Below are positions 2,352-18,180 of a stretch of DNA of 49,884 bases, one piece after another; the first letter of the stretch is position 1; every line of letters begins with the position of its first letter. The DNA comes from a virus, in the IMG/VR virus record IMGVR_UViG_3300022690_001394, positions 1-49,884 of that record; one strand, given 5' to 3'. Both the position numbers and the translations under genes were made by a program. Under the pieces are notes generated by a model. The model did not search any database. It was not told the DNA's origin and saw only the letters and a list, made by a program, of their open reading frames with translations.

Positions 2352-2969
2352 TTATTTTTTAATAAATACTAGAAAATAGGCGTGGTATTTGCGCGCGTGT
2401 TGTTGGTTTGCGTGATTGTGACCAATTATTCTATTTTTGGCCAATAAAACAAACATATCTTTTGTATAAAATCCTAAGGATTCAGCCTTATTTATTATAT
2501 GTACATGACTAAGCCATTGCTTACCACTACTTACAGTATCTTGACATTTAAATGCTAAAACACCATTTGGTTTTAATATCTTATAAAATTCTGTCAAACA
2601 TTCATCATACCATTTCCACAAATCTTTGATGTACGGAAATCCATGAAAACGTTCACCTATAATGCCTGTTGGTTTTTTCTTTGTGTGACCAACTATAAAT
2701 GGCGGATCGAACATTATTGAATTTAGCGAATTAAGCTCAAATGGAAGATTATTAGCATTAGCTTTAATTACACTTTTTGATTTTGGGTATAAATCGGTTT
2801 TGTGTAGAGGTTGTGGAACGCGTCCATTTTTATAAAAATTACCTTTAGAATAAGTTGGATCTAAACAAAATTGATTATTATTGATGTACAGATTCATAAT
2901 ATTTTCGATGATTTCGACTTGATCATAAGATATGGTACTAATCGGTTTCGGTTTTTTTATCATGTTCAT
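2352..2969 (-). CDS. DNA methyltransferase (N6-adenine or N4-cytosine type)
   Basis: The protein has 205 aa. The catalytic motif DPPF is at residues 88-91, and a motif I-like stretch for AdoMet binding (LDPTYSKGNFY) is at about 36-46. LKPNGVLAFKCQD at about 130-142 fits the strand after the catalytic motif in amino-methyltransferases. It is short, with no obvious separate target-recognition domain. The start overlaps the end of the upstream nuclease gene by 4 bases, so the two are translated together. The probable job is to protect the element's own DNA from that nuclease. The specificity cannot be read from the sequence. Confidence 0.8.
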   Translation of the reverse strand: MNMIKKPKPISTISYDQVEIIENIMNLYINNNQFCLDPTYSKGNFYKNGRVPQPLHKTDLYPKSKSVIKANANNLPFELNSLNSIMFDPPFIVGHTKKKPTGIIGERFHGFPYIKDLWKWYDECLTEFYKILKPNGVLAFKCQDTVSSGKQWLSHVHIINKAESLGFYTKDMFVLLAKNRIIGHNHANQQHARKYHAYFLVFIKK

Positions 2970-3565
2970 TTTACATATCCTTTACTTGTTATTGTTTCAA
3001 TTTTTTCTGGAACGTAAAGTTCCAATGTTTTTAAATAGTTAATCAAATTATCAAATTCTTTTGAAGAACAAATTATTGCTTCATTTATTCCCAGGATAGT
3101 ACGTTCTCCAATTTTTCTGTTAATATTATTTGCTTCATCAGAAAGCGTTAAAAGATAAGTTTTTGAATTACGGTGAACATACTTTAACATTAATCCTTCT
3201 AGATCTGCTTGTTTCCATCTCTCTCTTAAAGTCGTTTTGAGAGACAAAACTATTGGTCCATATTCTTTGCTGTAGATAACAAAATCAAAATTAATATTTG
3301 GGACAAATGCCAAACTGGCTTGAGTATAAAATGGTAAAACATTTGATCTATACAAAATTATAGCTGTGAGCACTTCAAAAACAGCGCCGTTTAAGCTTGG
3401 ATTTCCTGTATAATTTAATTTATACTTTTTCCATAATTCATTTAACAATTTTGATTCCGAATGATACTCAATTGTTAAAATATCTTGATACAGATCATCA
3501 AAAACTTTACTTATTCCATTACCGGATATTAAATTTAATTCTCTTAATTTTTCGCTGATATTCAT
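2966..3565 (-). CDS. Probable type II restriction endonuclease (PD-(D/E)XK-like)
   Basis: The protein has 199 aa. It contains what looks like a PD-(D/E)XK nuclease core: E64 in a helix (GAVFEVL), D94 in a strand (NFDFVIY), then VLSLKTTLRERWKQADLEG with K110. The usual acidic residue before the lysine is replaced by serine, as in some restriction enzymes. It overlaps the methyltransferase gene by 4 bases, the usual arrangement of a restriction-modification pair. The frame is open back to 3673, but that ATG has no ribosome-binding site, whereas the ATG at 3565 has AAGGGA and a promoter just upstream. The function is inferred from the motif plus the neighbour. Confidence 0.65.
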   Translation of the reverse strand: MNISEKLRELNLISGNGISKVFDDLYQDILTIEYHSESKLLNELWKKYKLNYTGNPSLNGAVFEVLTAIILYRSNVLPFYTQASLAFVPNINFDFVIYSKEYGPIVLSLKTTLRERWKQADLEGLMLKYVHRNSKTYLLTLSDEANNINRKIGERTILGINEAIICSSKEFDNLINYLKTLELYVPEKIETITSKGYVK

Positions 3566-3573
3566 GCAATAAT

Positions 3574-3631
3574 CCCTTATAATTGTTTTTTGATAATAGT
3601 TTATTATAAGGGAAATCGTTAAAAGATTCAA
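3574..3631 (-). promoter_or_regulatory. Promoter of the restriction-modification pair with overlapping inverted repeat
   Basis: TTGAAT (3631-3626) and TATAAT (3608-3603) are 17 bases apart on the minus strand. A 10-base inverted repeat, CCCTTATAAT (3574-3583) against ATTATAAGGG (3603-3612), has one arm on the -10 box and the other just before the start codon, where it includes the ribosome-binding AAGGG. The arms could be an operator for autoregulation. Only one arm would be in the mRNA, so an RNA hairpin is unlikely. Confidence 0.55.
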
Positions 3632-3669
3632 CTTTTCATAAGTTTTTTTATTTTTTAGCGGCATTACTT

Positions 3670-4353
3670 TCATTTGTTTAATATATATTCTTCGACTGTT
3701 TTTGTACCAAATGTAGTTGAATAACGATACAATCCTTTCCTGGTAAGAGTGAATTTATTTTTAATTGAAAAAGTTAGAGATCCTACGACTATTTCACCAT
3801 CTGCAACATCATATGATTCGTTAATATAAATTAATTTTTTCTTACCGGTTCTGTAATCGTAAACACGGACAAGACAACCTTCATCTAATAAATTTTGTTG
3901 CATAATTATAGCCCGTACAGTTATTTGTGTTGATGAAGGTTTATTTTGTGCTTCATCAATCAAATGTTTTGTATATGTATCTAATGCATCCAGAGCCTTT
4001 TGTTTTGAACTTTTGCCAACTTGGACTAGAATTTTAGTATTTTGATCAGTTAAAATTAAAAAATAATTTTTTGCGAAGTCACGAATTTGTAAAACTTTGC
4101 ACTGATAATTTTTATATACTACACCCTTATATTTGATATTTAAAATAACGTATGGTCTTAATTTATTTTGTGCTGCTTGTTCAGATCTACGTTTTGCTTC
4201 ATTTTGCGCTTTTTGTCGCGCTATATTTCGTGCTTCATTCCGTGCTTGAATTTCGAATCTTGCGGCTTCCTGAGATCCTTTTATCGCTAATGATGGATTT
4301 TGTGCATTTAGGCTGAAGGTGATGATCATTAAGATTATTACTAATTTTTTCAT
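3670..4353 (-). CDS. Secreted or periplasmic protein of unknown function, 227 aa
   Basis: A clear signal peptide (MKKLVIILMIITFSLNAQ) is followed by a highly charged helical stretch rich in A, R, N, E and Q (residues about 28-66), then a mixed alpha/beta region with no family I recognise. Cleavage is expected after the LNA at about residue 17. The gene has the shared promoter (4392-4419) and a variant of the shared leader (AAGGAATCAAGACA before ATG), so it belongs to the same regulatory group as the autotransporters and pseudopilins. It may coat or modify the cell envelope. Confidence 0.7.
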   Translation of the reverse strand: MKKLVIILMIITFSLNAQNPSLAIKGSQEAARFEIQARNEARNIARQKAQNEAKRRSEQAAQNKLRPYVILNIKYKGVVYKNYQCKVLQIRDFAKNYFLILTDQNTKILVQVGKSSKQKALDALDTYTKHLIDEAQNKPSSTQITVRAIIMQQNLLDEGCLVRVYDYRTGKKKLIYINESYDVADGEIVVGSLTFSIKNKFTLTRKGLYRYSTTFGTKTVEEYILNK

Positions 4354-4391
4354 TGTCTTGATTCCTTTAATTACGTTCTTGTTATATAATT

Positions 4392-4419
4392 AAAGTACAC
4401 CCTAATTCACTAATTGCAA
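4392..4419 (-). promoter_or_regulatory. Shared-type promoter, copy A
   Basis: TTGCAA (4419-4414), 16 bases, TACTTT (4397-4392) on the minus strand, in the conserved context GGGTGTACTTTAATTATAT. One of seven sites with identical spacing. It drives the secreted-protein gene at 3670-4353. Confidence 0.65.
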
Positions 4420-4421
4420 AT

Positions 4422-4652
4422 CTATTTTGATTTATTATCCCATTTATTAATCAATTTTTTAATAGTATCATTATCACCATATCTAAATTCATTCCATTCT
4501 TTATCGCTTATATTTATATCAAGTCTTTGTTCCATTCGATTTCGATAGTTTTTATCAAGTTCATATTCTATTAATTTTCCATTTATATGAATGATTGTGA
4601 CTATTATTGTATGGACTATAAAAACACAAAGAACTACTATTGCATATTTCAA
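4422..4652 (-). CDS. Small membrane protein, 76 aa
   Basis: One strong membrane segment (KYAIVVLCVFIVHTIIVTII) is followed by a charged tail of about 50 residues. The frame is open to an ATG at 4715, but that codon lies inside the terminator of the upstream autotransporter gene. The TTG at 4652 has AGGGG eight bases ahead and places the membrane segment at the very N-terminus, so it was preferred. It sits between a terminator and copy A of the shared promoter and has no evident promoter of its own. The function is unknown. Confidence 0.4.
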   Translation of the reverse strand: MKYAIVVLCVFIVHTIIVTIIHINGKLIEYELDKNYRNRMEQRLDINISDKEWNEFRYGDNDTIKKLINKWDNKSK

Positions 4653-4695
4653 TATAAAAACCCCTAAATTTTGATTGTGAAGATATAGTATGTGC

Positions 4696-4735
4696 AAAAA
4701 AAGCGCCCAATCCAAGCATTGCTTAAACTGGGCGC
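4696..4735 (-). terminator. Rho-independent terminator after the first autotransporter gene
   Basis: On the minus strand the arms TGGGCGC and GCGCCCA (4729-4735 and 4703-4709) enclose an inner short repeat and are followed by a run of seven T (A at 4696-4702). Confidence 0.8.
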
Positions 4736-4757
4736 CCGTGGCGTGTAGGACACTAGT

Positions 4758-7484
4758 TTAGAATCTAAATGTAATCTTACCGTTTACACTGTCTGATTCG
4801 GAATTATCACTCAGTTCTTTGGCATAGTCAAAGTCCAGGGTAACTTTATCAGTTAGTTGGTATTCAAAACCAATTGTGGCTCTGAAGCTATCAGCATCAC
4901 GGGCAATACCATCTTGTGAGAAATTACCGAATGAAGTAAAGGCTTCGGCGGTGGTCTGTGAATCAAGGAATTCATGCATCCAAGCACCTGAAACACTAAC
5001 ACCCAGGCGTTTGAATTGTTTAACGAGTTTTACACCAAGTTCTGATTCTAGACTGTCCTGGTCAAATGATTTCAAACCGTTTTCGGCATCTTCACGGATT
5101 TCATCAAATTGAACCATTGAGTAGCGCAAACCAGCAAATGGTTTGATTTCCAGGCTATCAGTTTTGATTGTCAATTCAGTCCGATATGATGCGAACATTT
5201 CACTTGAATCAAAATCCTGGACATCATCACCAGTATTATTATAACTGGTGTATCCTAGCATAGCTTTATGTCTAAGATTGCCCTGGTCCATCATCATATA
5301 CAGATTTAGACCTAGACCTTCAGACTTAATATCTGTGTGAACACCATCATCATTAACTGTTGATGTATAATCAGTATATGTTGCGCTTAGACCAAATGTT
5401 GTATCATTGAACATTTTATCCAAACCAGCAGCAAATTCTGTTCCGTGGCCATCGATGCCATGATTGCCGGTTCCATCTAATGAATCATCACTGAAGTATA
5501 GATCAGCCCAGATATTCAAACCATTATTATCGCGCATATGTCCAGCACTCAAACGATCAAACATTTGATTAACCCGGTTGCTAATTAGATTCAGGTTGCT
5601 TGTAGCTAATGATGCATATTCAACTTTATTGATCGAATCCATGAATGCATCAAGATCATCCCAGCTTTGAAAGCCATAGATAGTCTGTTGTAATGCTTCA
5701 GTTCTATTCAACTCAGTTATATTAGCGCTATAGGCTCTTGATACCTGATACGGTTCAAGTGTTTCTGTTGTTGTCACCATTGACATTGTTGACATTGTAG
5801 CATCATCGTATTCAGATGATAATGGTGGGATATCTTGGAATCCTAATGATGTTTCTTTTAACCACCAAGCAATTACCCCAGGTTGATCATCAATATATGC
5901 AGCTATGCTTAAATGAGCTACACCGGTTTCATTGTCTAAACTTTCTATACCATAGATATCAGAATAAAATTTAATGTCTGTGAAATCATCGAATCTAATA
6001 TTACCATCAAAGACATCAATAAACATTTGTGTAAAGGTTGCAAAGAATGATTCATTATCATATGATTCTAAGGTATGATCAACTAAATATAATGTTGCTT
6101 CTGGGGCAATATGTGATGTACCCTTAACATCAACACTATCATGATTTATGCGATGATATACTGGAATTGGTTTACCTTTGAATGCTGCGTGGCCCCAGCC
6201 AGCATATTTTCCATCTGGGTGTGTATGTTTATCATGATAAAAATCATCATCTATATAAACATAATCATTAGGATAAAGAGGTTTAGCATCTTTAATATCA
6301 ATGACAAGTCCACCATTATTTTCTATAATCAGATCATTTACAGTTAATTTTTCATAATCTCTTACATCATAATACTGACCACCACCTTCGCGTTCTTGTG
6401 CAAAGCGATTCCAGAAATAATTACCATTGGTATCATAATTATTTTCATATGGGTTTACTATGCCATTTGCGATATGTAGATTCATCATACCATTATCACC
6501 ATCACCGGTATGTAAAATTCCGCCACCGGTTAGATAAACATTGCTTCTAGAATTGTTATAATCTTGGAAGTTATGAAACTCAACATTGAAATAATTTTCA
6601 CCACCTATAACAGTAATGCTATGCCAATCTTTTAAGCGGCCATTTTTGAAATCAGTATTTATATTATCAAGTATTAAATAACTCTTTGCCGTTAGACTTT
6701 CATCAGCGTTTCCAACATATGTAATACCACCTTTATATTCACCATCACCTTTAAGTGTTAGAATATTTCTTGACCTAACTGCATCATCATTACCAGCATT
6801 GATAAGACCGTTATTTTCAATAATGCCACCATCTAGTAAGTATAATCCAGATGAATAAAAAGAATTTATTTCACCATCATTTATAATATCAGCTTTACCC
6901 CACATCAAGACACCATAATTAACTGCATCAATGTAGCCAGAATTATATATTGTCAAGTTTTGTTTATTACTTAGCTGATAGATTCCTAATCCAGCACTTT
7001 CAATTTGTCCATAGTTATTAATCTCAAAACCATTATAAATTGAAGTACCGGCTTCTGGATCAATTTGTATACCTATTTGAGCACCGTAAATATGCCCCGT
7101 GGAATAGTTATTTAGTATACCATTAATTCCAACCTGATTAAGTCCAACACCGTGTTCACTGCTGATATCGCCATAATTTTCAATTGACAATAAACTTAAA
7201 ACACCTAAACTATTACTTTCTGTATATAAGCCATATTCATTATCACCCCGAATACTGGATGTTTCACGATGAAAATATCGGCCCATTACATTGTATATTG
7301 CAACAGCTGTTCTATCACCTTCAATAAAACTTTCTACATTACCTTCCTCTATGCTTTCAACATCACTACCGAAAGCCCAGTTGTTAAAATCAAACGTTTC
7401 GGTTACTTTTGATGGTGAAAATGAATCACCAGCATAAACACTTAGTGCTAGTAATCCTATTATTAGTACTATAATTTTTTTCAT
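4758..7484 (-). CDS. Autotransporter (type Va secretion), 908 aa
   Basis: The signal peptide (MKKIIVLIIGLLALSVYAG) is followed by a long passenger full of short N-N-x-G and I-x-N-x-G-x-I repeats typical of a right-handed beta-helix (about residues 60-480). A linker comes next, then a C-terminal beta-barrel of about 280 residues (from LNIWADLYFSDDSLDGTGNH) that ends in F (GKITFRF), as expected for outer-membrane insertion. The barrel is nearly identical to that of the adjacent 1021-aa gene while the passengers differ. The gene has its own shared-type promoter, the AAGGAACCAAGATC leader and a terminator. It probably displays its passenger on the host surface, and could change receptors or adhesion. 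It is not obviously a virion protein. Confidence 0.8.
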   Translation of the reverse strand: MKKIIVLIIGLLALSVYAGDSFSPSKVTETFDFNNWAFGSDVESIEEGNVESFIEGDRTAVAIYNVMGRYFHRETSSIRGDNEYGLYTESNSLGVLSLLSIENYGDISSEHGVGLNQVGINGILNNYSTGHIYGAQIGIQIDPEAGTSIYNGFEINNYGQIESAGLGIYQLSNKQNLTIYNSGYIDAVNYGVLMWGKADIINDGEINSFYSSGLYLLDGGIIENNGLINAGNDDAVRSRNILTLKGDGEYKGGITYVGNADESLTAKSYLILDNINTDFKNGRLKDWHSITVIGGENYFNVEFHNFQDYNNSRSNVYLTGGGILHTGDGDNGMMNLHIANGIVNPYENNYDTNGNYFWNRFAQEREGGGQYYDVRDYEKLTVNDLIIENNGGLVIDIKDAKPLYPNDYVYIDDDFYHDKHTHPDGKYAGWGHAAFKGKPIPVYHRINHDSVDVKGTSHIAPEATLYLVDHTLESYDNESFFATFTQMFIDVFDGNIRFDDFTDIKFYSDIYGIESLDNETGVAHLSIAAYIDDQPGVIAWWLKETSLGFQDIPPLSSEYDDATMSTMSMVTTTETLEPYQVSRAYSANITELNRTEALQQTIYGFQSWDDLDAFMDSINKVEYASLATSNLNLISNRVNQMFDRLSAGHMRDNNGLNIWADLYFSDDSLDGTGNHGIDGHGTEFAAGLDKMFNDTTFGLSATYTDYTSTVNDDGVHTDIKSEGLGLNLYMMMDQGNLRHKAMLGYTSYNNTGDDVQDFDSSEMFASYRTELTIKTDSLEIKPFAGLRYSMVQFDEIREDAENGLKSFDQDSLESELGVKLVKQFKRLGVSVSGAWMHEFLDSQTTAEAFTSFGNFSQDGIARDADSFRATIGFEYQLTDKVTLDFDYAKELSDNSESDSVNGKITFRF

Positions 7485-7524
7485 GATCTTGGTTCCTTTT
7501 TGGGTTTGTTATCGTTACATAATT

Positions 7525-7552
7525 AAAGTACACCCTTTTTAGATCAATGCAA
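7525..7552 (-). promoter_or_regulatory. Shared-type promoter, copy B
   Basis: TTGCAT (7552-7547), 16 bases, TACTTT (7530-7525), with flanking GTGTACTTTAATTATG. It lies between the terminator of the 1021-aa autotransporter and the start of the 908-aa autotransporter, which it should drive. Confidence 0.7.
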
Positions 7553-7565
7553 GTGTATTCCAAAT

Positions 7566-7600
7566 AAAAAAGACGACTAGCTGAAGGAAGCTAGTCGTCT
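7566..7600 (-). terminator. Rho-independent terminator after the second autotransporter gene
   Basis: The perfect 12-base arms AGACGACTAGCT (7571-7582) and AGCTAGTCGTCT (7589-7600) enclose a 6-base loop; on the minus strand the stem is followed by a T-rich tract. It separates the two autotransporter units. Confidence 0.9.
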
Positions 7601-7620
7601 GTTGCTTGGTGCTGGGAAGT

Positions 7621-10600
7621 TTAGAATCTAAATGTAATCTTACCGTTCACACTATCTGATTCAGAATGATGACTTAGTTCTTTGGCATAATCGAAGTCCA
7701 GAGTAACTTTATCTGTTAGTTTGTATTCAATACCAATTGTAGCTCTGAAACTATCAGCATCACGGGCTATACCATCTTGTGAGAAGTTACCGTATTCAGT
7801 AAAGGCTTCACCAGTGGTTTGTGAGTCAAGCAGTTCATGCATCCAGGCACCTGAAACACTAACACCTAGTTTTTGGAATTGCTTAACAAGCTTTACACCA
7901 AGTTCTGTTTCTAGACTATCTTGATCAAAGGCTTTCAGACCGTTTTCTGCATTCTCACGCATTTCATCGAATTGGACAAACGAATAACGAACACCGGCAA
8001 ATGGTTTGATTTCTAGATTATCAGTTTTGATTGTCCATTCAGCCCGGTATGATGCGAACATTTCACTTGAATCAAATGCCTGGACATCATCACCAGTATT
8101 ATGATAACTGGCATATCCTAGCATTGCTTTGTGTCTAAGATTGCCCTGGTCCATCATCATATAGAGATTCAAACCAAAACCGATAGATTCAATATCTGTA
8201 TGAACATCATCATCATTAACCGTTGATGTGTAATCAGTATATGTTGCGCTTAGACCAAATGTTGTATCATTAAACAGTTTATCTACACCAGCAGCAAATT
8301 CTGTTCCGTGGCCATCGATGCCATGATTGCCGTGGCCATCTAGTGAATCATCACTGAAGTAGACATCACCCCAGATATTCAAACCGTTATTATCGCGCAT
8401 ATGCCCAGCACTCAAACGATCAAACATTTGATTAACCCGGTTGCTAATCAGGTTTAGATTGCTTGTTGCAAGTGATGCATACTCTAATTTGTTTAGTGTA
8501 TCCATGAATGCATCAACATCATTCCAACTTTCGAAGCTGTAAATAGCACTTCTTAGATTCAATGATTTATCTAGATCAGTAATTTTTGCACTGTAATTCT
8601 TTGCTACTTGATAAGGTAGCAATTCTGATTTAGGTTTTTCTTCAACTGGATGAATTACGATAGGTGCATCATCATCATCATCATCATTACTTACAATAGG
8701 TGCTCCAGTAGTACCATCATCATTTACTGTATAACCGCGGCTAGCCATAGCATCAGCGTGTAATGCTGTTCCTACATTACCATCATCAGTTACTGTAGTA
8801 GTTGAATTAGCTGCTTGTGCTTGTGCTGCTGCTTGTGTTGCGGCGGCGGCTGCTGTTTCTCGTTCAGCTGATGCTGTTTGTGCTGCTGCTGCTGGATTTG
8901 AAGATGGAAAACCTAATGATGCTTGTGTTAACCACCAATCAATTTGGCCTTTTGTACCAGAAAATACATTGTGATATGCATCCCTGCTTAAATGAATGAT
9001 ACCATTTACTTTATCAACACTTTCAATACCGTAGTAATCAGAGTAATAATCAATATTCCAATCAAATTGATCAAGGCTTATATTGCCATCAAAAAGATTG
9101 ATTTCTAAGTTGGCCAAAGGTTTTTCAACAAATTCTGGTGTATAACCATCATCTTCAATCCATTTTGTTTTCTCAAGTAAATGAAGTTTAGCACCTGTTT
9201 CAATAGTTGCTGTTCCTTTTACGTCGATAGTATCATAACTTACACGTTGGTAAAGAAATAAATCACCGATTTCACCAGATACTTTTTTTAATCTAGTCCT
9301 GTATCCTTGACCGGCATATGAACCATCTGGGTTATATATGCTTTCAACACCTTCATGCATATCATCCCAATAGCCGACGCGATCATCTTCATCATTTATT
9401 GGATTTGATGGTGTATAATTAGGCTCTGAATAGCGTACTTCCATTACAAGACCTGAACCGGCTTCTATGGTTAAGTTGTTCACAGTTAGCTTTTCGAATT
9501 CTTTACGGTCGTATATTACTACAGCTGGATTTGTATCAAGTTTTAATGCTGGTCTATCCCAATAAAAATTAGGTACAGTTCCAGCATCATAATCATTTCT
9601 ATACGGATTTAACAAACTGTTACCAGTAAGAGTAATATTAGCATCACCCCAGCCACCAGCGCCGGTATTGATGTAGGCATTACTATGAGCAACAATTTCA
9701 GTTCGTGGATAGTTCGAATTTTGGGCATCATTTACAACATTAAAATAATGTTTACCGCCATCGACCATAATATAAGACCAATTTGTTAAACGAGAATTTT
9801 TGAATTGAATACCCTCACTTTGAAGTGATAAAATTGAAAGGGCTTGTGAATTACCAGTAAATTCAATATCACCTTGATATGAACCAGTACCTTGAAGTGT
9901 TAAATTACCCTCTGAACGAACTGATCGACCAGCATCTAATGTTGTAGCCAAACTCATTATCATACCGTTATTGTGAATCGTTCCACCTTGCGTTAAATAA
10001 ATAGCTGCTTTATCTTGTGAGAGAATCGTATTTTCATTAGTAATCGTTATTGGATTATTGGCTAAGATTGCATTATTTTTACCACTAATAATACCAGTAT
10101 AATAATTATTAATAGTAACAGCTTGATTAGCATTTGATACATAAACACCTACACCATTACTACTTATATTACCTTCATTATGAATCGTAAAACCATTTAA
10201 TAATAAACTATTACCACTTTCAGTATCAATTTGTACACCAATTGAATTACCAAAAATATAACTATCATACCAATTATTTAATTGGCCATTAATACCAACC
10301 ATTTTAAGCGCGGTAATATAATTATTAGTAATACCACCCCAATTTTCAATCGTTAATAAACTCATATTAGTATTACTTTTTGCGTATAGCCCAAATTCAA
10401 AATTCGCCGAAATTGTATTATCAGGATTATTATAATATTTGCCTAGAACATTCTCTATTTGAACAGCTGTATAATTACCAAATATTGTACTATTATTTTC
10501 AACATTACTTCCTGGTGCCCAATATATTGCTGGGAGAGCACCAATAGCATCATATTTTATGATTGATTGTGTTGGTGGTCCTGAATTACCTCCATATGGT

Positions 10601-10686
10601 ACTGAATCACCTGCATGTGCATTAAATGCTAATACAGCTGCTAGCGTTAGGATTGTTTTTTTAATTGCTTTTGTAAACTTTTTCAT
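7621..10686 (-). CDS. Autotransporter (type Va secretion), 1021 aa
   Basis: Signal peptide (MKKFTKAIKKTILTLAAVLA, cleavage likely after NAHA), beta-helix-type passenger, an Ala/Gln/Thr-rich linker, a run of six Asp encoded by a TCA-type trinucleotide repeat, then a C-terminal barrel almost the same as that of the 908-aa neighbour and also ending in GKITFRF. The two genes are clearly tandem paralogues whose passengers have diverged while the barrel DNA stays similar, which hints at gene conversion or recent duplication with passenger exchange. The gene has its own shared-type promoter, leader and terminator. Outer-membrane display on the host cell is the expected role. Confidence 0.8.
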   Translation of the reverse strand: MKKFTKAIKKTILTLAAVLAFNAHAGDSVPYGGNSGPPTQSIIKYDAIGALPAIYWAPGSNVENNSTIFGNYTAVQIENVLGKYYNNPDNTISANFEFGLYAKSNTNMSLLTIENWGGITNNYITALKMVGINGQLNNWYDSYIFGNSIGVQIDTESGNSLLLNGFTIHNEGNISSNGVGVYVSNANQAVTINNYYTGIISGKNNAILANNPITITNENTILSQDKAAIYLTQGGTIHNNGMIMSLATTLDAGRSVRSEGNLTLQGTGSYQGDIEFTGNSQALSILSLQSEGIQFKNSRLTNWSYIMVDGGKHYFNVVNDAQNSNYPRTEIVAHSNAYINTGAGGWGDANITLTGNSLLNPYRNDYDAGTVPNFYWDRPALKLDTNPAVVIYDRKEFEKLTVNNLTIEAGSGLVMEVRYSEPNYTPSNPINDEDDRVGYWDDMHEGVESIYNPDGSYAGQGYRTRLKKVSGEIGDLFLYQRVSYDTIDVKGTATIETGAKLHLLEKTKWIEDDGYTPEFVEKPLANLEINLFDGNISLDQFDWNIDYYSDYYGIESVDKVNGIIHLSRDAYHNVFSGTKGQIDWWLTQASLGFPSSNPAAAAQTASAERETAAAAATQAAAQAQAANSTTTVTDDGNVGTALHADAMASRGYTVNDDGTTGAPIVSNDDDDDDAPIVIHPVEEKPKSELLPYQVAKNYSAKITDLDKSLNLRSAIYSFESWNDVDAFMDTLNKLEYASLATSNLNLISNRVNQMFDRLSAGHMRDNNGLNIWGDVYFSDDSLDGHGNHGIDGHGTEFAAGVDKLFNDTTFGLSATYTDYTSTVNDDDVHTDIESIGFGLNLYMMMDQGNLRHKAMLGYASYHNTGDDVQAFDSSEMFASYRAEWTIKTDNLEIKPFAGVRYSFVQFDEMRENAENGLKAFDQDSLETELGVKLVKQFQKLGVSVSGAWMHELLDSQTTGEAFTEYGNFSQDGIARDADSFRATIGIEYKLTDKVTLDFDYAKELSHHSESDSVNGKITFRF

Positions 10687-10741
10687 TGTCTTGGTTCCTT
10701 TTTGGGTTTGTTTTTGTGTTAGTGAATCTAACTACATTATT

Positions 10742-10769
10742 AAAGTACACCCTATTTTAATCAATGCAA
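10742..10769 (-). promoter_or_regulatory. Shared-type promoter, copy C
   Basis: TTGCAT (10769-10764), 16 bases, TACTTT (10747-10742). AGTGTACT precedes the -35 box and GTGTACTT overlaps the -10 box 25 bases later, forming a direct repeat. It drives the 1021-aa autotransporter. Confidence 0.7.
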
Positions 10770-10790
10770 GTACACTTAGATAAAAAGATT

Positions 10791-10821
10791 AAAAAAAATA
10801 CCTGGAATGTTTAGTTCCAGG
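10791..10821 (-). terminator. Rho-independent terminator after the zinc-ribbon gene
   Basis: CCTGGAA and TTCCAGG arms enclose a 7-base loop, with eight consecutive A on the plus strand next to it (T run on the minus strand). It ends the transcript of the small gene at 10828-10989 just before promoter copy C. Confidence 0.75.
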
Positions 10822-10827
10822 CATTGA

Positions 10828-10989
10828 TTAAGCGTTTTCTTTAAGCTTATTTTTCATTTCAAAATTCAAACAGGCATTACAAACGACTTCATTTTTCCCA
10901 AACCAATTACGCCCAGGAATATAGTAACAGATCTTATTACAGATTGTACATAATCCTTTCTTTAACTGGCCCTTTTTCCCATTTCCCAT
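10828..10989 (-). CDS. Small zinc-binding protein, 53 aa
   Basis: Two Cys pairs (LCTICNKIC and VVCNACLNF), about 20 residues apart in a basic protein, form a probable zinc ribbon. The ATG is 12 bases after the ParB/Srx-like gene and the reading frame ends directly before a terminator, so it is the last gene of that operon. Possible roles are nucleic-acid binding or regulation; no partner can be named. Confidence 0.6.
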   Translation of the reverse strand: MGNGKKGQLKKGLCTICNKICYYIPGRNWFGKNEVVCNACLNFEMKNKLKENA

Positions 10990-11001
10990 GATTTTTTCCC
11001 T

Positions 11002-12120
11002 TTATTTGTTTATGATATAATTAAGATCTGAAGCCTTAACTTGATCACCAAAAATAGCCCGATCCAGATAAAGATTCGCTGCAAATTTATCAATTTTCTT
11101 ACCGTTTCCCCGGTTTATCATGTTACCTAATCTGGTACTACGTTTCATTATTTGTGTCACTGCGTGATCCACATCTTCTAGTCTATGAATTTTCCGTGTA
11201 GCTGCACAAATTAAATAACCTATTATTGTATCATTATATATTACCACTGGATAAGTATCATTCAACGTTCTTTTACGGGCATGGTGATCTGGTACGTCTT
11301 GTTTTAGATGTGCTTCGAATAATCTTCGGCGTTCGATTAATTCATTCAAGTATTGCAAAACAACACCTATTCCAGGAATCAAATTAGCACATTGATTCAT
11401 TTTCAATTTACTTATTTTAGGAACCGCTAATCTAGTATCTTTTCTGGCCAATCTATTATATTCACCCCAGACATGTTCATAGCTCCAATCCTCCATCCAG
11501 CTATCTATATCATCAACATGCTCAATCAATGAATATAGAACAAATGATAGTACAGCATAATTTTTTCTTGGAAATACGTTCTTTAATCCTGTTTCAATTT
11601 GTGCAGTTTTTACTAATTCTGCAATTAATTTACCATAGGCTAAATCAGTATTTGTTAATGTATTAATTCGTGTGTGTGCAATACCACTATTAATATTTTG
11701 ATATAATGTTAAAAATTCTTTTTCATCCACTATTTTAATAACGACTTCCTTATTCCAATGCCGGTTTAGTTTATCACTAGCCGCTAACTGACATAATGCA
11801 CTTAAACGATGACTACCATCAACTGTCATTAAGCATTTCTTTTTCTTATCATAAATCATTGATAAAATGCCCAAACTATTATAATCAAATTCATTAGCCA
11901 ATCTATCAATATGTGATTGTGTTAAACCTTTTGCGCCGCGATTCTTTTCATAATAACCAATTAGCCCATTATTAACAACACTTAATAGTTCTTTAAGTGT
12001 TATGATATGAAGTCCTATTTTCTTCAATTTTGTAAATGTACTTTTATATGTTGTATAGTCTTTATGATCATCAAGTATACTATTGTAATGATTAAATTCA
12101 GCTATTACCTTTTTTTGCAT
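11002..12120 (-). CDS. ParB/Srx-fold (DGQHR/DUF6551-like) protein, 372 aa
   Basis: The motif VDGSHRLSAL at about residue 118, preceded by GLTQSHIDRLANEFDYNSLG, is the pattern of phage proteins with a ParB/sulfiredoxin-like fold (DGQHR, DUF6551-like), where a conserved D-G-x-H-R lines a nucleotide-binding pocket. The rest is helical, with basic patches near the C-terminus. The start has AAGGGTACAACAA before ATG. In a plasmid-like phage it could help partition or control DNA modification, but there is no ParA-type ATPase next to it and I cannot decide between these. It is longer than a bare ParB N-terminal domain. Confidence 0.55.
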   Translation of the reverse strand: MQKKVIAEFNHYNSILDDHKDYTTYKSTFTKLKKIGLHIITLKELLSVVNNGLIGYYEKNRGAKGLTQSHIDRLANEFDYNSLGILSMIYDKKKKCLMTVDGSHRLSALCQLAASDKLNRHWNKEVVIKIVDEKEFLTLYQNINSGIAHTRINTLTNTDLAYGKLIAELVKTAQIETGLKNVFPRKNYAVLSFVLYSLIEHVDDIDSWMEDWSYEHVWGEYNRLARKDTRLAVPKISKLKMNQCANLIPGIGVVLQYLNELIERRRLFEAHLKQDVPDHHARKRTLNDTYPVVIYNDTIIGYLICAATRKIHRLEDVDHAVTQIMKRSTRLGNMINRGNGKKIDKFAANLYLDRAIFGDQVKASDLNYIINK

Positions 12121-12157
12121 TTGTTGTACCCTTTGTTTTGTTTTTGTATCCCTAATT

Positions 12158-12274
12158 CTAACGATATAGAATTGTAAGAATATGAATTAAAATCCCAGTT
12201 TGTACTATTGTAAGAAGTGTAAGCAATATAAGCCAGATTAAGGTTACATTACTTTTTTGTGGTTCTTGTGTCAT
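12158..12274 (-). CDS. Small single-pass membrane protein, 38 aa
   Basis: A short polar N-terminus is followed by one membrane segment (TLIWLILLTLLTIVQTGILI). The start ATG lies inside the end of the HNH nuclease gene and is preceded by GGGAAAAAGC. It is one of several tiny membrane proteins in the accessory region, and its function is unknown. Confidence 0.5.
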   Translation of the reverse strand: MTQEPQKSNVTLIWLILLTLLTIVQTGILIHILTILYR

Positions 12275-12623
12275 GCTTTTTCCCAGTAGTTCTAAATGCA
12301 TTAATCTTTATTTTCCAGTATTCCGCTAATTCATCATCAAGTATAACTCCCTGGTTATCTGCAAATCGATGATGTGTTTCACATAGTGGAATTAGATTTG
12401 TTTCCAGCCAAAATATTTCAGGATTACTTACTGCATCCCGGATATGGTGAACGCTTGTTGATGGTTGTTCACATGCTTCTGGATTTTGGCAAACTACCCA
12501 GCGGCTACGAATTGTTTTTGATAGTTGTCGCCAGCGCTCAGATTGTCGCATAATAAGCAAACGCTTAGTTTGAGCTATTATAAATTTGCTTCTGGGCCTA
12601 TAGAGTGAATTAAAATTTTTCAT
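12249..12623 (-). CDS. HNH endonuclease, 124 aa
   Basis: CQNPEAC, then SVHHIRDAV, then LIPLCETHHRFAD: a Cys pair, the HH of the catalytic strand and the C-x-x-H-H of the helix, the usual order of the HNH metal-finger nuclease. Phages often place such a nuclease beside the terminase for packaging; here it lies far from it, among accessory genes. The ATG at 12623 overlaps the end of the upstream gene; an in-frame start at 12644 is also possible but falls deeper inside that gene. It could be a packaging cofactor, a homing-type nuclease or a nuclease acting with the ParB/Srx-like gene. Confidence 0.75.
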   Translation of the reverse strand: MKNFNSLYRPRSKFIIAQTKRLLIMRQSERWRQLSKTIRSRWVVCQNPEACEQPSTSVHHIRDAVSNPEIFWLETNLIPLCETHHRFADNQGVILDDELAEYWKIKINAFRTTGKKHDTRTTKK

Positions 12624-12993
12624 TAATAAATTCCATATCTTCATGCATCCATTTCAGGCATTTTTCAATATCAAATCCTTGTTGTCTATATTTCAGGAAT
12701 TGTTTAAAAAGTAGCATATCAAGATCTAATTCATATGAATCAATTTCACCTTCTGGTTCGCTTTCCTGGAATGGTGAATTTCGATGTTCCATAGCATTAC
12801 CATAGATGACATCCAAGATCATACTATCATCGCGTATATCTTTAATTTTACCAGTAAATTCAAATGCCTGATTCTGTTCATCAAAAGCAACAATTGTAAT
12901 TATACTTCCCGACTGCAAATTGACTTCCCTTTCAATTAACTTATCCCTGAAAATTGTTCGGCGGTATGAATCTGAAACTACTTGAGTGCTCAC
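12610..12993 (-). CDS. Hypothetical 127-aa protein with GTG start
   Basis: I do not recognise this protein. The N-terminal half may form a small beta-barrel (SGSIITIVAFDEQNQAFEFT) and the C-terminal half is acidic and helical. The GTG start lies inside a 12-base inverted repeat (12954-13030) that also includes a GGAACC/GGTTCC hairpin, so translation may depend on RNA folding. It overlaps the HNH gene at its 3' end and is probably co-translated with it. Confidence 0.55.
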   Translation of the reverse strand: MSTQVVSDSYRRTIFRDKLIEREVNLQSGSIITIVAFDEQNQAFEFTGKIKDIRDDSMILDVIYGNAMEHRNSPFQESEPEGEIDSYELDLDMLLFKQFLKYRQQGFDIEKCLKWMHEDMEFINEKF

Positions 12994-13030
12994 ATAAGCA
13001 CCGGAACCAAGGTTCCAGACCGCCGAACAA
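12954..13030. repeat. GC-rich 12-bp inverted repeat around a start codon
   Basis: TTGTTCGGCGGT (12954-12965) and ACCGCCGAACAA (13019-13030) are perfect inverted copies, 53 bases apart. Between them lies GGAACC-AA-GGTTCC. No T run follows on either strand, so this is not a terminator. The right position for a translational switch or a protein-binding site ahead of the 127-aa gene. Confidence 0.75.
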
Positions 13031-13073
13031 GAAATACCATATAGCCCAAAAATTAATTATTACAAACGTTTTT

Positions 13074-13253
13074 TTAATTTACTTCAAAAAGTTCATGAAT
13101 CTTAATTTGCTTATTTTGGAGTCGTTTTTTCAACTTATCCAAATTTAATTCTGTTGCTAATGGGCTTAATAATTTAAAACAACTTTGGCACTTACCATGC
13201 TTGGAAAGTGCTAAATTGCATTTACAATAATCTTTATTTTTTAATATATTCAT
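13074..13253 (-). CDS. Small Cys-rich protein, 59 aa
   Basis: The protein reads C-x-C then C-x-x-C (DYCKCNLALSKHGKCQSCF) near the N-terminus, a likely zinc-binding unit, followed by a basic coiled-helix tail. The start overlaps the end of the ribbon-helix-helix-like gene by 20 bases in another frame. The 80 bases after its stop contain no gene. The function is unknown. Confidence 0.5.
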   Translation of the reverse strand: MNILKNKDYCKCNLALSKHGKCQSCFKLLSPLATELNLDKLKKRLQNKQIKIHELFEVN

Positions 13254-13527
13254 CTGAGTTATTTTTTAAGCAATATTCCATCATGCTATTAAGGATCATA
13301 CTTTTTGTTTTTGCTTCATCATCATTTTCTTTTGACAGTTTAACAAGATGTTTTAAAAATATAGTATTGGTTCCTGACAAATAAACCGCTGTTTTATGTT
13401 TTTTTTCTGCAAATGCGGGTGTCTTTGGCCCTGTTCTTACTTGTTTAATTGCTGGTACAAATAGCATTTCGATTAATTCTTTATCAGTTATAACCAATTC
13501 TGCTACGCGTTCCTTATGTGTTTTCAT
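13234..13527 (-). CDS. Possible ribbon-helix-helix regulator, 97 aa
   Basis: The C-terminal half has a short strand (KTAVYLSGTN), a helix (FLKHLVKLSKEN) and a second helix (KTKSMILNSMMEYCLKN), as in CopG/Arc-type DNA-binding dimers; the first 40 residues are an extra helical arm. It is preceded by AAAGGGATTATAAG and lies downstream of promoter copy D, which carries the palindrome AGTATACT next to both promoter boxes. It is therefore a good candidate for the regulator of the shared promoters, but this is inference. Confidence 0.5.
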   Translation of the reverse strand: MKTHKERVAELVITDKELIEMLFVPAIKQVRTGPKTPAFAEKKHKTAVYLSGTNTIFLKHLVKLSKENDDEAKTKSMILNSMMEYCLKNNSDEYIKK

Positions 13528-13547
13528 CTTATAATCCCTTTCTGATC

Positions 13548-13568
13548 TTATGCTTTAATTCCTTTCAT
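13548..13568 (-). CDS. Possible 6-codon leader peptide
   Basis: The shared leader (GGAACTAAGGAA before ATG) is followed by codons for M-K-G-I-K-A and a stop, 21 bases before the ribbon-helix-helix-like gene. It may be the remains of the cassette's original start, or a leader that affects the next gene's translation. Confidence 0.25.
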   Translation of the reverse strand: MKGIKA

Positions 13569-13587
13569 TTCCTTAGTTCCTGAATTT

Positions 13588-13615
13588 ACAGTATACTTTT
13601 ATTTTTTTATTGCAA
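13588..13615 (-). promoter_or_regulatory. Shared-type promoter, copy D
   Basis: TTGCAA (13615-13610), 16 bases, TACTGT (13593-13588). Both boxes are preceded by the perfect palindrome AGTATACT, which makes this copy the most symmetrical of the seven. It drives the ribbon-helix-helix-like gene. Confidence 0.65.
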
Positions 13616-13620
13616 GTATA

Positions 13621-13710
13621 CTATGATATTAAATATATTATATAAGCAACTGCAAATTTTAATCCAAAGGTCAAAATCATAGCTACTATTATTATTAATA
13701 TTGCATCCAT
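13621..13710 (-). CDS. Membrane microprotein, 29 aa
   Basis: The whole protein is one membrane segment (AILIIIVAMILTFGLKFAVA). It starts with the shared leader (AAAGGAACCAGGAAA before ATG), which argues that it is really translated. Its end reaches the palindrome of promoter copy D. The function is unknown. Confidence 0.5.
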   Translation of the reverse strand: MDAILIIIVAMILTFGLKFAVAYIIYLIS

Positions 13711-13734
13711 TTTCCTGGTTCCTTTGGGGTTATC

Positions 13735-13878
13735 CTAGTTATTGCTGTGACATGGAAAATGTCTTAAAGTATTCATCTGGCACAAAAATGTTCTCCTTTC
13801 CAATGTTATGACTGTTGGTGGTGCAACTTTGATAATCAATCGCGGGTGGAATATTGTTAAACGTGGTTCTTTTTTCAT
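13735..13878 (-). CDS. Small basic protein, 47 aa
   Basis: It starts with the shared leader (AAAGGAACCAAGATC before ATG). The product is rich in R, K, H and P with no recognised domain. It belongs to a row of five small genes (13621-14711), each with the same leader, read from promoter copy E. Confidence 0.45.
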   Translation of the reverse strand: MKKEPRLTIFHPRLIIKVAPPTVITLERRTFLCQMNTLRHFPCHSNN

Positions 13879-13904
13879 GATCTTGGTTCCTTTGGGTTAC
13901 TGGG

Positions 13905-14114
13905 TTATTTAATCAGGTTATCAATGATTGGTCCGATATTCACAAAATGACGAAATGTTTTGCACCACACCAGATTAAATTTTTCCATATAACGAATCAT
14001 TTGTTCTTTGGTGGCTAGAGGGAAATCTTTTTGAAATTCTTTAAGTGGGATTTCACTTTCATAAAATTTCAGTATTCCGTGATCGATAATTTCTAATGTA
14101 ACATTAACTTTCAT
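13905..14114 (-). CDS. Hypothetical 69-aa protein
   Basis: Shared leader (AAGGAACCAGGAAA before ATG). The first 20 residues look like a beta-hairpin (KVNVTLEIIDHGILKFYESE), followed by helices. No signal peptide and no known family. It is one of a series of leader-linked small genes. Confidence 0.55.
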   Translation of the reverse strand: MKVNVTLEIIDHGILKFYESEIPLKEFQKDFPLATKEQMIRYMEKFNLVWCKTFRHFVNIGPIIDNLIK

Positions 14115-14140
14115 TTTCCTGGTTCCTTGTGGGTGTATTG

Positions 14141-14410
14141 TTAAGCTGTTTTTACAGCATTGAATTTATAATTGTAATCATCTGCATTGGTGATTGTGTA
14201 CCCTTCCCTGATAAGTTTAGCAATGCGTTTTTTATTGTTAGCGGTTCTATCCATTTTGAAATGGAATTCTGGTAGATCCAGAGCAAAGAATTTTTTGTAA
14301 GTCATTTCTTTACCACAAATGATTTTACCTGCTGCTGAATAAACAAAGATCATTACATCATTTTGGAATGTTACACTGTATGATTTTTTCATTATGACTG
14401 TTTTTTTCAT
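14141..14410 (-). CDS. Hypothetical 89-aa protein
   Basis: Shared leader (AAAGGAACCAGAACA before ATG); a second in-frame ATG lies seven codons on. Mixed strand/helix with a basic C-terminus; no signal peptide, no recognised family. Lies in the promoter copy E unit. Confidence 0.55.
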   Translation of the reverse strand: MKKTVIMKKSYSVTFQNDVMIFVYSAAGKIICGKEMTYKKFFALDLPEFHFKMDRTANNKKRIAKLIREGYTITNADDYNYKFNAVKTA

Positions 14411-14474
14411 TGTTCTGGTTCCTTTGGGTTTGAGGTCAACGGATTTTAAGTCCGTTGTGTCTGCCCCGTTTTTG

Positions 14475-14711
14475 TTAAATAAAAAATTTGCTTGGTGTGT
14501 CCATCAATTCGATTTCTTCAGTTTCCAACCACTGCATAAATTTTTCAGGATTGCGGCGTTCTAGTTCGTCCATTAACCAACAGCGAACAACAGGGACACT
14601 ATCACCATCTATTTTATTGGTTAATTCGAATGATTCACACAGTTTTTTAAGTGACAAATTTTGGATTAATTTGATTGCTGTGTTTTCGAGATTTTTGGCT
14701 TTGCTATTCAT
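14475..14711 (-). CDS. Hypothetical 78-aa protein
   Basis: It is the first gene after promoter copy E, with the shared leader (AAGGAACCAAGAAA before ATG). The product is acidic and helical, with WLMDELERRNPEKFMQWLE near the C-terminus. I do not recognise it. Confidence 0.6.
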   Translation of the reverse strand: MNSKAKNLENTAIKLIQNLSLKKLCESFELTNKIDGDSVPVVRCWLMDELERRNPEKFMQWLETEEIELMDTPSKFFI

Positions 14712-14752
14712 TTTCTTGGTTCCTTGTTTGTTGTTTCATTCTCTACATAATT

Positions 14753-14780
14753 ACAGTACACCCCAATTGGAACATTGCAA
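14753..14780 (-). promoter_or_regulatory. Shared-type promoter, copy E
   Basis: TTGCAA (14780-14775), 16 bases, TACTGT (14758-14753), with the palindrome AAGTGCACTT running into the -35 box. It drives the row of small genes that ends at 13621. Confidence 0.7.
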
Positions 14781-14801
14781 GTGCACTTTTAATAAAACTA
14801 T

Positions 14802-14831
14802 AAAAAAACCCGGTTCAATTAAGAACCGGGT
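14802..14831 (-). terminator. Rho-independent terminator after the pseudopilin unit
   Basis: ACCCGGTTC and GAACCGGGT arms (14808-14816, 14823-14831) are followed on the minus strand by seven T. It ends the transcript from promoter copy F just before promoter copy E begins. Confidence 0.9.
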
Positions 14832-14860
14832 AGCTGTAGCGCAACTATTGTTGGTTAACA

Positions 14861-15238: not shown

Positions 15239-15257
15239 TGTCTTGGTTCCTATTTTG

Positions 15258-15386
15258 TTAAAGAATTATTGGTTTGATTATGTGAAACTTTGCTAGTCCT
15301 ACTAGCCCTATTGCGACCCAGAACAGTATTGTTTGACCAATAATTTTAAGTTCTGTAACTTGTTTTTGAGAAAGTTCGAAATACAT
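15258..15386 (-). CDS. Small membrane protein, 42 aa
   Basis: Polar N-terminal helix followed by a single membrane segment (TILFWVAIGLVGLAKF). The start codon overlaps the stop of the pseudopilin gene as TAATG, so it is translationally coupled to it. A partner of the pseudopilins in the inner membrane is possible. Confidence 0.55.
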   Translation of the reverse strand: MYFELSQKQVTELKIIGQTILFWVAIGLVGLAKFHIIKPIIL

Positions 15387-15871
15387 TATTTTTTCCCGCC
15401 TTTTCCAGCTACTGGTTTCCATTCTTTTGGTGCAACATGGCCATCATAATAAAGTATATTTTGATATGGTTGACCTTCTACATGATGATTTTCAGCCCTA
15501 TCTGACATTAATTCAGTTCCGGATGGTTTAGCTATATTCAAGTTCCTGCCAAATCCTCGATAATGGTATTCAAAAAATTGAGGGCCATAACCTGGATCTT
15601 CACCGGTTGGACAATCAATAATATTAGCATCTGCAATATTTAATTTTTCCAACAATTCATCACCAGAATAAGAATTTGGTAAATTGCCTTTATTATCACT
15701 GGCATACATCATTAAACCCATACCTAACTGTTTCAGGTTGTTTGTACAGTTTATGCGTCTTGCTCGTTCTCTGGCTTGTCCTAAGACTGGTAATAGCATT
15801 CCTGCTAAGATGCTGATGATGCCAATTACAACTAGTAATTCTATTAAGGTGAATCTTTTTAACTTTTTCAT
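15386..15871 (-). CDS. Type II secretion-like pseudopilin, 161 aa
   Basis: The N-terminus ([20 protein letters not shown]) is a class III signal: a short basic leader, F, then T-L-I-E-L with the glutamate at +5, and a hydrophobic helix. [20 protein letters not shown] follows, the usual continuation in PVC-group proteins. The C-terminal part ends with ILYYDGHV, close to the H-x-DG motif of those families. It should be cut by the host prepilin peptidase and join a pilus or secretion machine. A second copy lies upstream; both share nearly identical N-terminal DNA. Phage-borne pseudopilins are unusual. Confidence 0.85.
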
Positions 15872-15949
15872 TGTCTTGGTTCCTTTAATGTATTGTTTAT
15901 TTTTTGTTTGTTTTTGCTTAGTTATTCCGGAGGATTTCCATCTACATAA

Positions 15950-16453
15950 TTACTCTATGTTGAAGCTTGGAGTAGGCGGCATTTGTGGTATTACATCTTC
16001 TACCGGTGTTGGTGGTGGTGTTGCTCCAACATGGCCATCCATATACAATGCATTTTGATAATGATCCGTATGATTGTTATAACGATCCTGCATTAACATT
16101 GTGGTTGTAGGTTTACTATCACTGAATTTTTTACCCTTTCCCAGATAAGTATAATTACTAGGACTTTCAGTTGTTGTTGATCTACTGGGGCATCTGAAAG
16201 TATCAGCACTGATATAATTAGGTACAATGTGTTCATCTACAGTTTTAGTCCATGATCCCGGGATTTGCCCTCTATTATCAACTGAATACATCATTAATGC
16301 AGTACCAATTTGTTTTAGGTTATTTGCACAATTTACTTGCCGGGCTTTTTCACGCGCTTTACCTAGAACTGGTAATAGCATTCCTGCTAAGATGCTGATG
16401 ATGCCAATTACAACTAGTAATTCTATTAAGGTGAATCTTTTTTGCTTTTTCAT
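15950..16453 (-). CDS. Type II secretion-like pseudopilin, 167 aa
   Basis: Class III signal ([20 protein letters not shown]), then the same long hydrophobic helix and [20 protein letters not shown], ending in [17 protein letters not shown] and a proline-rich tail. The frame is open to 16519, but the ATG at 16453 carries the shared leader and makes a proper prepilin leader, so it was chosen. First gene after promoter copy F. The last bases of this gene look like a decayed promoter remnant (GTAATTATGTAG), as though the two pseudopilin units arose by duplication of the whole cassette. Confidence 0.85.
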
Positions 16454-16510
16454 TGTCTTGGTTCCTTTAATGTTTTGTTTGTTTTGTTGTTGTTCGCTGT
16501 CTACATATTC

Positions 16511-16538
16511 ACAGTACACCTTGATTTTATTAATGCAA
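16511..16538 (-). promoter_or_regulatory. Shared-type promoter, copy F
   Basis: TTGCAT (16538-16533), 16 bases, TACTGT (16516-16511). Drives the pseudopilin unit, which runs through four genes to the terminator at 14802-14831. Confidence 0.7.
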
Positions 16539-16785
16539 GTCTACTTTGAATAATAATATGAAAATAATTAAAACCGCCCTCCCCTATTGTCTTTTTTAAA
16601 TCGCGGTTTAGTGTTTGATCTGGAAAGTTTGTATAAATGGGAACCCTTATAAGGGGTTATAGGGGTTCTTTTGTTCTTGATCTTATAAATTTAAAATTTA
16701 AAAAAAGCCCGTGTCATCATATTTAAAGTATTTAAAAGTATTTAAGAGTCATAAGTGATTGATAGTCAACAATTTAAAATCCGTA
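16539..16785. other. Non-coding AT-rich region left of the iterons
   Basis: No gene is visible. It holds a 7-base inverted repeat (AAACCGC at 16571, GCGGTTT at 16603), a repeat-rich stretch (CCCTTATAAGGGGTTATAGG near 16645) and an AT-only-like block around 16683-16702. With the adjacent iterons it is probably the DNA-unwinding part of the replication origin. Confidence 0.4.
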
Positions 16786-16941: not shown

Positions 16942-18180
16942 ATGAAAAAAATAGCGACAATTCAAAATCATTATCCTATCTTTGCTCGACAAAAAGCATT
17001 GTCCAAACGTGCTGCAATTCTTGAAATATTAATAATATCACAATTAGAACCTTCAGATGATGAATTCTACAGTGTAAAAATCACCAAAGAACAATTATTA
17101 GAATATGGGGTCCTGTCTAATGATAAAAATTATGTGCGTGAATTAAAAGTTTTAGTTGATGAAATACGTAATTACACAATTGAATTACCCACAGATAATG
17201 AAAATCAAACTCACAAGTGGCGTTTCTTGTTAGATGGTTGTGATGTCTATAAAAATTACGATATAGTTATAAAAGTAAATGAAGCTGTAGGGCCCTACTT
17301 ATTAAATCTTAAAGGGAATTTTTATCAAATTGATATTTATTCACTTATTAGATTAAAAGGAAAATATCCAAAAATTCTTTACGGTGTTTTTAAATCCTTT
17401 GAATATCGTGGTAAAGGACATATAACTATTGAAAATTTACGAAATGCATTAGGTCTAAGCGATGATCTTTATAAAAATTTTGCACACTTCAATGATCGGA
17501 TTTTGAAATCTTCAGTAGAAGAAATTAATAAAAATAGTACAATTATAGTTAGTTATGAATCTCATAAAATCATCAATAAAGTTACAGAAATTACATTTAC
17601 AGTTGATGCAAATATTAATAATATTGAATTAAATCCTCAAATTAAAGAAGTAAAAAGAGATTTTTTATCTACCGGTGCTCGCAAAATTCTAGATAATTAT
17701 GGTTGGAATAATGATAAATTCTTATTAAACTTAATACAATCATACGGTAATGAGACATTTGAACAAGCCATATTTCTATTTGACAAACGGTATAAAAATT
17801 ATCAGCCCAGGAATAAAGCTGGGGTTTTTCACAACCGGATTAACTATTATATAAATGAAGTAAGGCGAATAAATGAAACAAAAAAGAAGATTCAAAGCGT
17901 TATTAAGAATGAAAAAATAGCTGATGAAATCTTTCAAAAATCTATCAAGGCAGATGAAGAATTTGGGCAAATATTCCTGGAATATTACTATAAAGAAATC
18001 TATGAAGCCTGCCCTACTTTCTTTAAAACGGTCTATGATTTTGACGATCCCAGCACTATAAATAGCTTACCAATAATCAGCCAAGCAACACAATTTGGTA
18101 TTGAAAAAGGCGATTATGAACGCCGAATACCTATTGAAGAATTAAAAATTGCTAAGTCAAATCTTAGTTATATTGAATAA
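16942..18180 (+). CDS. Rep_3-family replication initiator, 412 aa
   Basis: The N-terminal half has the two winged-helix pattern of plasmid initiators such as RepE and pi. YPKILYGVFKSFEYRGKGHI followed by LRNALGLSDDLYKNFAHFND and then VSYESHKIINKVTEITFTV correspond to the conserved second domain. The C-terminal 170 residues are helical and basic and are not part of the core family. It is the first gene after the iterons and is on the opposite strand from nearly everything else. It should bind the iterons and open the origin. A TATAAA box lies only 6 bases before the start, so the true promoter is unclear. Confidence 0.85.
   Translation: MKKIATIQNHYPIFARQKALSKRAAILEILIISQLEPSDDEFYSVKITKEQLLEYGVLSNDKNYVRELKVLVDEIRNYTIELPTDNENQTHKWRFLLDGCDVYKNYDIVIKVNEAVGPYLLNLKGNFYQIDIYSLIRLKGKYPKILYGVFKSFEYRGKGHITIENLRNALGLSDDLYKNFAHFNDRILKSSVEEINKNSTIIVSYESHKIINKVTEITFTVDANINNIELNPQIKEVKRDFLSTGARKILDNYGWNNDKFLLNLIQSYGNETFEQAIFLFDKRYKNYQPRNKAGVFHNRINYYINEVRRINETKKKIQSVIKNEKIADEIFQKSIKADEEFGQIFLEYYYKEIYEACPTFFKTVYDFDDPSTINSLPIISQATQFGIEKGDYERRIPIEELKIAKSNLSYIE

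Follow-up and report, generated by a model that had tools for sequence, protein, structure and literature searches.

The window analysed here is an entire linear IMG/VR record (a single metagenomic record of 49,884 nt), and two intact autotransporter open reading frames, A and B, lie in tandem at 4758-7484 and 7621-10686, as an earlier sequence-only reading of this DNA had reported. In each frame a passenger is followed by a barrel within the same polypeptide. The features on which the argument draws are the following.

4758..7484, minus strand: autotransporter A, intact open reading frame, 908 aa (PF03797, E 1.8e-31)
5664..7484, minus strand: signal-like N-terminus and passenger of A (aa 1-607), a beta-helix in the structural model
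4758..5663, minus strand: barrel and lumen-helix region of A (aa 608-908), delimited by 88% identity to the B barrel and the change point at A608
5136..5585, minus strand: barrel tract of A (aa 634-783), probably homogenised at silent sites
7621..10686, minus strand: autotransporter B, intact open reading frame, 1021 aa (PF03797, E 1.4e-29)
8527..10686, minus strand: signal-like N-terminus, passenger and linker of B, aligned to passenger A along its length
7621..8526, minus strand: barrel region of B (aa 721-1021), delimited by alignment to A and the change point
7524..7552, minus strand: promoter-like block of A, TTGCAT-N17-ACTTTA, recognised by its repetition in the window
10741..10769, minus strand: promoter-like block of B with the same motif (flank alignment score 43 vs at most 15.5 for shuffled sequence)
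7480..7498, minus strand: shared ribosome-binding leader of A, AAGGAACCAAGA-N2-ATG
10682..10700, minus strand: shared ribosome-binding leader of B
4701..4737, minus strand: intrinsic-terminator-like hairpin after A, 17 pairs
7571..7600, minus strand: intrinsic-terminator-like hairpin after B, 12 pairs
3670..4353, minus strand: 227-aa protein with a signal-like N-terminus, a promoter-like block of the same family (4391-4419) and the leader (4349-4367)
15386..16519, minus strand: twin DUF1559-type pseudopilins (PF07596, PF07963) with the leader found at the autotransporters
16776-16915: direct repeats (D16) upstream of the Rep3 initiator
16942..18180, plus strand: Rep3 plasmid replication initiator (PF01051 and PF21205)

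Both PF03797 matches exceed the curated cut-off, the TIGR01414 profile is likewise above its cut-off for A and B, and the barrel of each protein is C-terminal and of the monomeric kind. On these profile matches both genes are classed as intact autotransporters of type Va; the barrel assignment relies on the profiles because a whole-protein AlphaFold model, with two sequences in the alignment, left the barrel unfolded (pLDDT below 50). The start of the N-terminus, read directly from the sequence, is MKK-hydrophobic-A(H/V)A-like, and the A/B alignment places an Ala/Asp-rich linker insert specific to B at about aa 590-690, ahead of the barrel. Assignment to the serine-protease autotransporters (SPATE) was rejected, as A has no GDSG-type catalytic serine motif and the sole SPATE-like motif of B is a GNSG in the N-terminal stretch. 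A role in the virion was considered unlikely in view of the signal-like N-terminus and the outer-membrane barrel.

The passenger of A, modelled with both passengers in the alignment, is predicted to be a beta-helix closest to pertactin, with strand triplets every ~20 residues and a pLDDT of 80-92 over much of residues 60-250. Pertactin was the best PDB match to this model (prob 1.00, E 2.4e-3), and the next structural matches included Ag43, EspP and UpaB; every E-value of these fold matches lies above 0.001. Matches in the viral structure library were to beta-helices of a general kind, glycosidases and tailspikes among them, and a PDB sequence search with the autotransporter pair gave no match. 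That passenger B adopts the same fold would follow only from its 42% identity to passenger A. The surface display proposed earlier is supported by the signal-like N-terminus, the modelled beta-helix of A and the type Va barrel; no exchange of passengers could be demonstrated.

With a promoter-like block and a terminator-like hairpin found for each gene, the earlier claim that each has its own promoter and terminator was borne out. The promoter-like block was recognised because it recurs, and the identity of its -10 element is uncertain; the pattern TTGCAW-N17-ACTKTA occurs in five exact copies in the window compared with 0.05 expected, and a scan of IMG/VR for the exact pattern found nothing. 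The leader AAGGAACCAAGA is present in 12 copies (0.03 expected), all within 4.3-16.5 kb. Copies of the promoter-like block and of the leader precede both autotransporters, the 227-aa protein, the twin pseudopilins and small open reading frames, and no virion genes; upstream of the second pseudopilin the block is promoter-like, with ACTGTG replacing ACTKTA. We read this shared set as a putative cargo regulon that may be active in lysogens, the link of the autotransporters to lysogeny being drawn from their position outside the virion genes alone. At both ends of several promoter-like blocks (4349-16467) lie overlapping GTRTAC-like boxes, which could be an operator. One such block also precedes a 97-aa open reading frame (13234-13527) whose product has no Pfam match but, by eye, resembles a ribbon-helix-helix protein.

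The element encodes terminase, portal, capsid and protease genes, and thus combines phage structural and packaging functions with the Rep3 plasmid replication initiator in one record, which makes the earlier label of phage-plasmid reasonable. An Erf-like annealing protein and a RusA-like resolvase are also encoded in the window. At 2352-3673, a DNA methyltransferase adjoins a protein with a weak, below-cut-off match to a BsaWI-type endonuclease, possibly a restriction-modification pair.

The barrels of A and B are 88% identical in protein and ~88% identical in DNA, which confirms the description of them as near-identical in protein and similar in DNA. The passengers, which had been said to share only their style, proved to be colinear and to align from end to end with 42% identity over their whole length; since their synonymous divergence also falls just short of saturation, they are true homologues. 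A base-by-base alignment, proposed earlier as a search for identity steps, revealed a sharp one at A aa 608 / B aa 721, where nucleotide mismatch falls from 43% to 12.5% (log-likelihood ratio 139 vs at most 8.9 in 200 shuffles). At the protein level this step is largely a matter of constraint, with a dN/dS of 0.45 (0.34-0.58) for the passenger and of 0.13 (0.09-0.20) for the barrel. The G+C content is 39% in the barrel and 33-34% in the passengers. Close identity of the flanks ends at the stop codon, and the 5' flanks retain promoter and leader.

Silent sites give a finer picture. Passenger pS is 0.60 (0.54-0.65), rising to 0.88 in A 561-607, where silent sites are saturated just before the step; it is 0.24 (0.15-0.34) in the proximal barrel (A634-783) and 0.45 in the distal barrel (A784-908). 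At identical residues the same codon is used in 58%, 88% and 70% of cases in passenger, proximal barrel and distal barrel, respectively, compared with a saturated expectation of 49-53%. The change point at silent codons lies beyond all 500 shuffles, and a break in silent-site divergence within the barrel is supported at p ~0.006. The confidence intervals of pS for the two barrel parts just touch, and the longest identical run in the barrel, 46 nt, is unexceptional (p 0.31). These silent-site and codon differences, together with the internal break, make a homogenised barrel tract likely, consistent with gene conversion, a reading based on two sequences, their silent-site rates and one internal change point. 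Divergence is therefore patchy at silent sites; uniform divergence along both genes, which would have spoken against any exchange, was not seen, and this patchiness fits conversion of the barrel at least as well as replacement of the passenger.

Searches for the same barrel joined to another passenger, as the sequence-only reading had suggested, found none in IMG/VR, PLSDB, INPHARED or GTDB. Scans of IMG/VR proteins, GTDB contigs, INPHARED, PLSDB and the Verrucomicrobiota/Lentisphaeria genomes yielded distant barrels only and zero passengers, and neither barrel had a match among the PHROGs families. When the barrel was compared by tblastn with 50,697 phage records (E up to 10), three records matched. 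Two of them were inspected (L046 and L047; the third, H26, had E 0.5), and neither of these two was a clear phage type Va autotransporter. In L046, which is probably host contamination, the barrel lies among chromosomal-looking genes (by eye, frames resembling ornithine carbamoyltransferase, an ABC transporter and UDP-glucose dehydrogenase); in L047 it lies beside resolvase-like genes, with no virion gene recognisable by eye. The relatives of the terminase and capsid, contigs L003 and L039, do not extend to the autotransporter region. With no PHROGs match and no clear case in the two inspected records, type Va autotransporters seem near-absent from phages.

Taken together, the data are best explained if a single type Va autotransporter gene was duplicated in tandem and the copies then underwent unequal constraint and partial conversion; the pair would be cargo for lysogeny on a Rep3 phage-plasmid. 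We assign this reading a probability of about 0.6. Each protein would be exported by Sec, its C-terminal barrel would insert in the outer membrane, and its pertactin-like beta-helix passenger would be displayed on the surface of the lysogen. Weaker constraint would have let the passengers diverge after duplication. Purifying selection would meanwhile have preserved the barrel, and gene conversion between the adjacent genes would have made part of it uniform again, perhaps with the help of the phage's Erf-like annealing protein. The autotransporters would belong to a small set with one promoter and leader type. Since this set includes the twin pseudopilins and the 227-aa protein, a remodelling of the host surface by the element is probable, and could serve adhesion, aggregation or receptor masking. 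A lysogenic change of the host surface is the likely role of the autotransporters; the exclusion of other phages or a better attachment, suggested earlier, would be putative effects of such a change.

The exchange of passengers on a fixed barrel, proposed earlier, is possible and yet unsupported as stated, since the passengers are colinear homologues and the contrast with the barrel is mostly one of constraint; as no relatives were found, the absence of other combinations elsewhere is weak evidence. In this account, a diverged homologous passenger would have recombined onto a recently duplicated barrel, with a crossover in the linker at about A aa 608-634. We consider this rather unlikely, even though it would account for the sharp step at the linker, the saturated silent sites just before it and the difference in G+C content, and has precedents in Ag43 domain shuffling (PMC10058404) and in the suggestion made for Neisseria AutA/AutB (PMC5118866). 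It would need two crossovers because the 5' flanks are conserved too, the distal barrel is likewise considerably diverged at silent sites, and neither a donor nor an alternative passenger turned up in the collections searched. Another account is plain duplication with differences in constraint only and no recombination, the silent differences being noise or codon constraint: dN/dS by itself accounts for most of the protein-level contrast, and the touching confidence intervals and the unexceptional identical run agree with it. Nevertheless, silent divergence clearly differs between passenger and proximal barrel, and the silent-codon change point exceeded every shuffle, so that we regard this account as improbable. 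Finally, the autotransporters may be host-derived cargo without a phage role, acquired with the plasmid block and kept for the benefit of the host. Host-type proteins do lie beside the plasmid initiator, and autotransporter barrels also occur in Lentisphaeria genomes; the nearest of these, however, is a distant relative (E 6e-18), no relative of the passenger was found there, and the expression signals that recur throughout the block point to a long stay on the element, which makes this origin very improbable.

Bacteria are well known to carry type Va autotransporters, and a conserved anchor joined to a diverged exposed part is a familiar pattern among them; the searches above did not reveal it in another phage. 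The pair resembles classical members such as pertactin, Ag43 and UpaB in its signal-like N-terminus, its predicted beta-helix passenger (modelled for A), its helix and C-terminal PF03797 barrel ending in an aromatic F, and in the combination of a conserved translocator with a variable passenger. It differs from them in that the passenger has no detectable sequence relative and the genes stand in tandem on a phage genome with a probable PVC host. For Ag43 it is accepted that domains are shuffled against a conserved translocator (PMC10058404), and for Neisseria AutA/AutB exchange of the passenger-coding region has been suggested, with a G+C contrast between translocator and passenger reported for AutB (PMC5118866). 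Our pair shares a conserved translocator and divergent passenger with Neisseria/Haemophilus AutB and E. coli Ag43, and the G+C contrast with AutB only; shuffling cannot be demonstrated here because the passengers are full-length homologues and two copies only are known. YadA-type trimeric autotransporter anchors have been reported in N4-like phages (PMC10654107). They too represent a type V surface-anchor gene on a phage genome, but they are trimeric, of type Vc (PF03895), and occur in another phage group, whereas the present proteins are of the monomeric type Va.

The host probably belongs to the PVC group, judging from relatives of the pseudopilins and prophage-like loci in Lentisphaeria genomes. 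Most relatives of the DUF1559-type pseudopilins come from Lentisphaerae, Verrucomicrobia and Planctomycetes, and the best individual match lies in Omnitrophota. Terminase relatives were found in four Lentisphaeria genomes, and one contig of such a genome carries several virion genes that match at 23-38%; many other phages, too, have terminases of this kind, at ~27%. The Lentisphaeria barrel match was dropped as host evidence, as Pseudomonas plasmid barrels score about equally. A phage-plasmid with its own outer-membrane display proteins and co-signalled pseudopilins would represent a clear case of lysogenic surface conversion, and one that concerns PVC bacteria, a group about whose phages little is known. 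The twin copies would also show, in compact form, how constraint and gene conversion can act on different modules of a single protein.

Two further tandem pairs are present in the window. The pseudopilins (15386-15871 and 15950-16519) have a near-constant N-terminus (pS 0.25 over aa 1-35, then 0.72) and divergent C-termini. In the virion region, tandem paralogues at 34580-35083 and 35139-36449 share 76% identity over 164 aa, and the product of the latter is extended at its C-terminus by a part that matches DUF285; both match one single place in the related contig L039. The autotransporter and pseudopilin pairs have one promoter and leader type. A common duplicate-and-diversify scheme for displayed proteins, in which each of the three pairs would combine a near-constant anchoring module, homogenised by recombination, with another part that is diversified or extended, is an improbable reading; if true, it would amount to a phage-encoded surface-variation programme for the host.

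Inverted repeats at both contig ends (1-591 and 48082-49884; 83 nt at 96% and 144 nt at 100%) are possibly assembly fold-backs or an invertible segment. A repetitive protein of 1971 aa, encoded at 37597-43512, contains three 300-nt direct repeats; its longest matches to the relative L003 show 60-72% identity, compared with 94% for the terminase.
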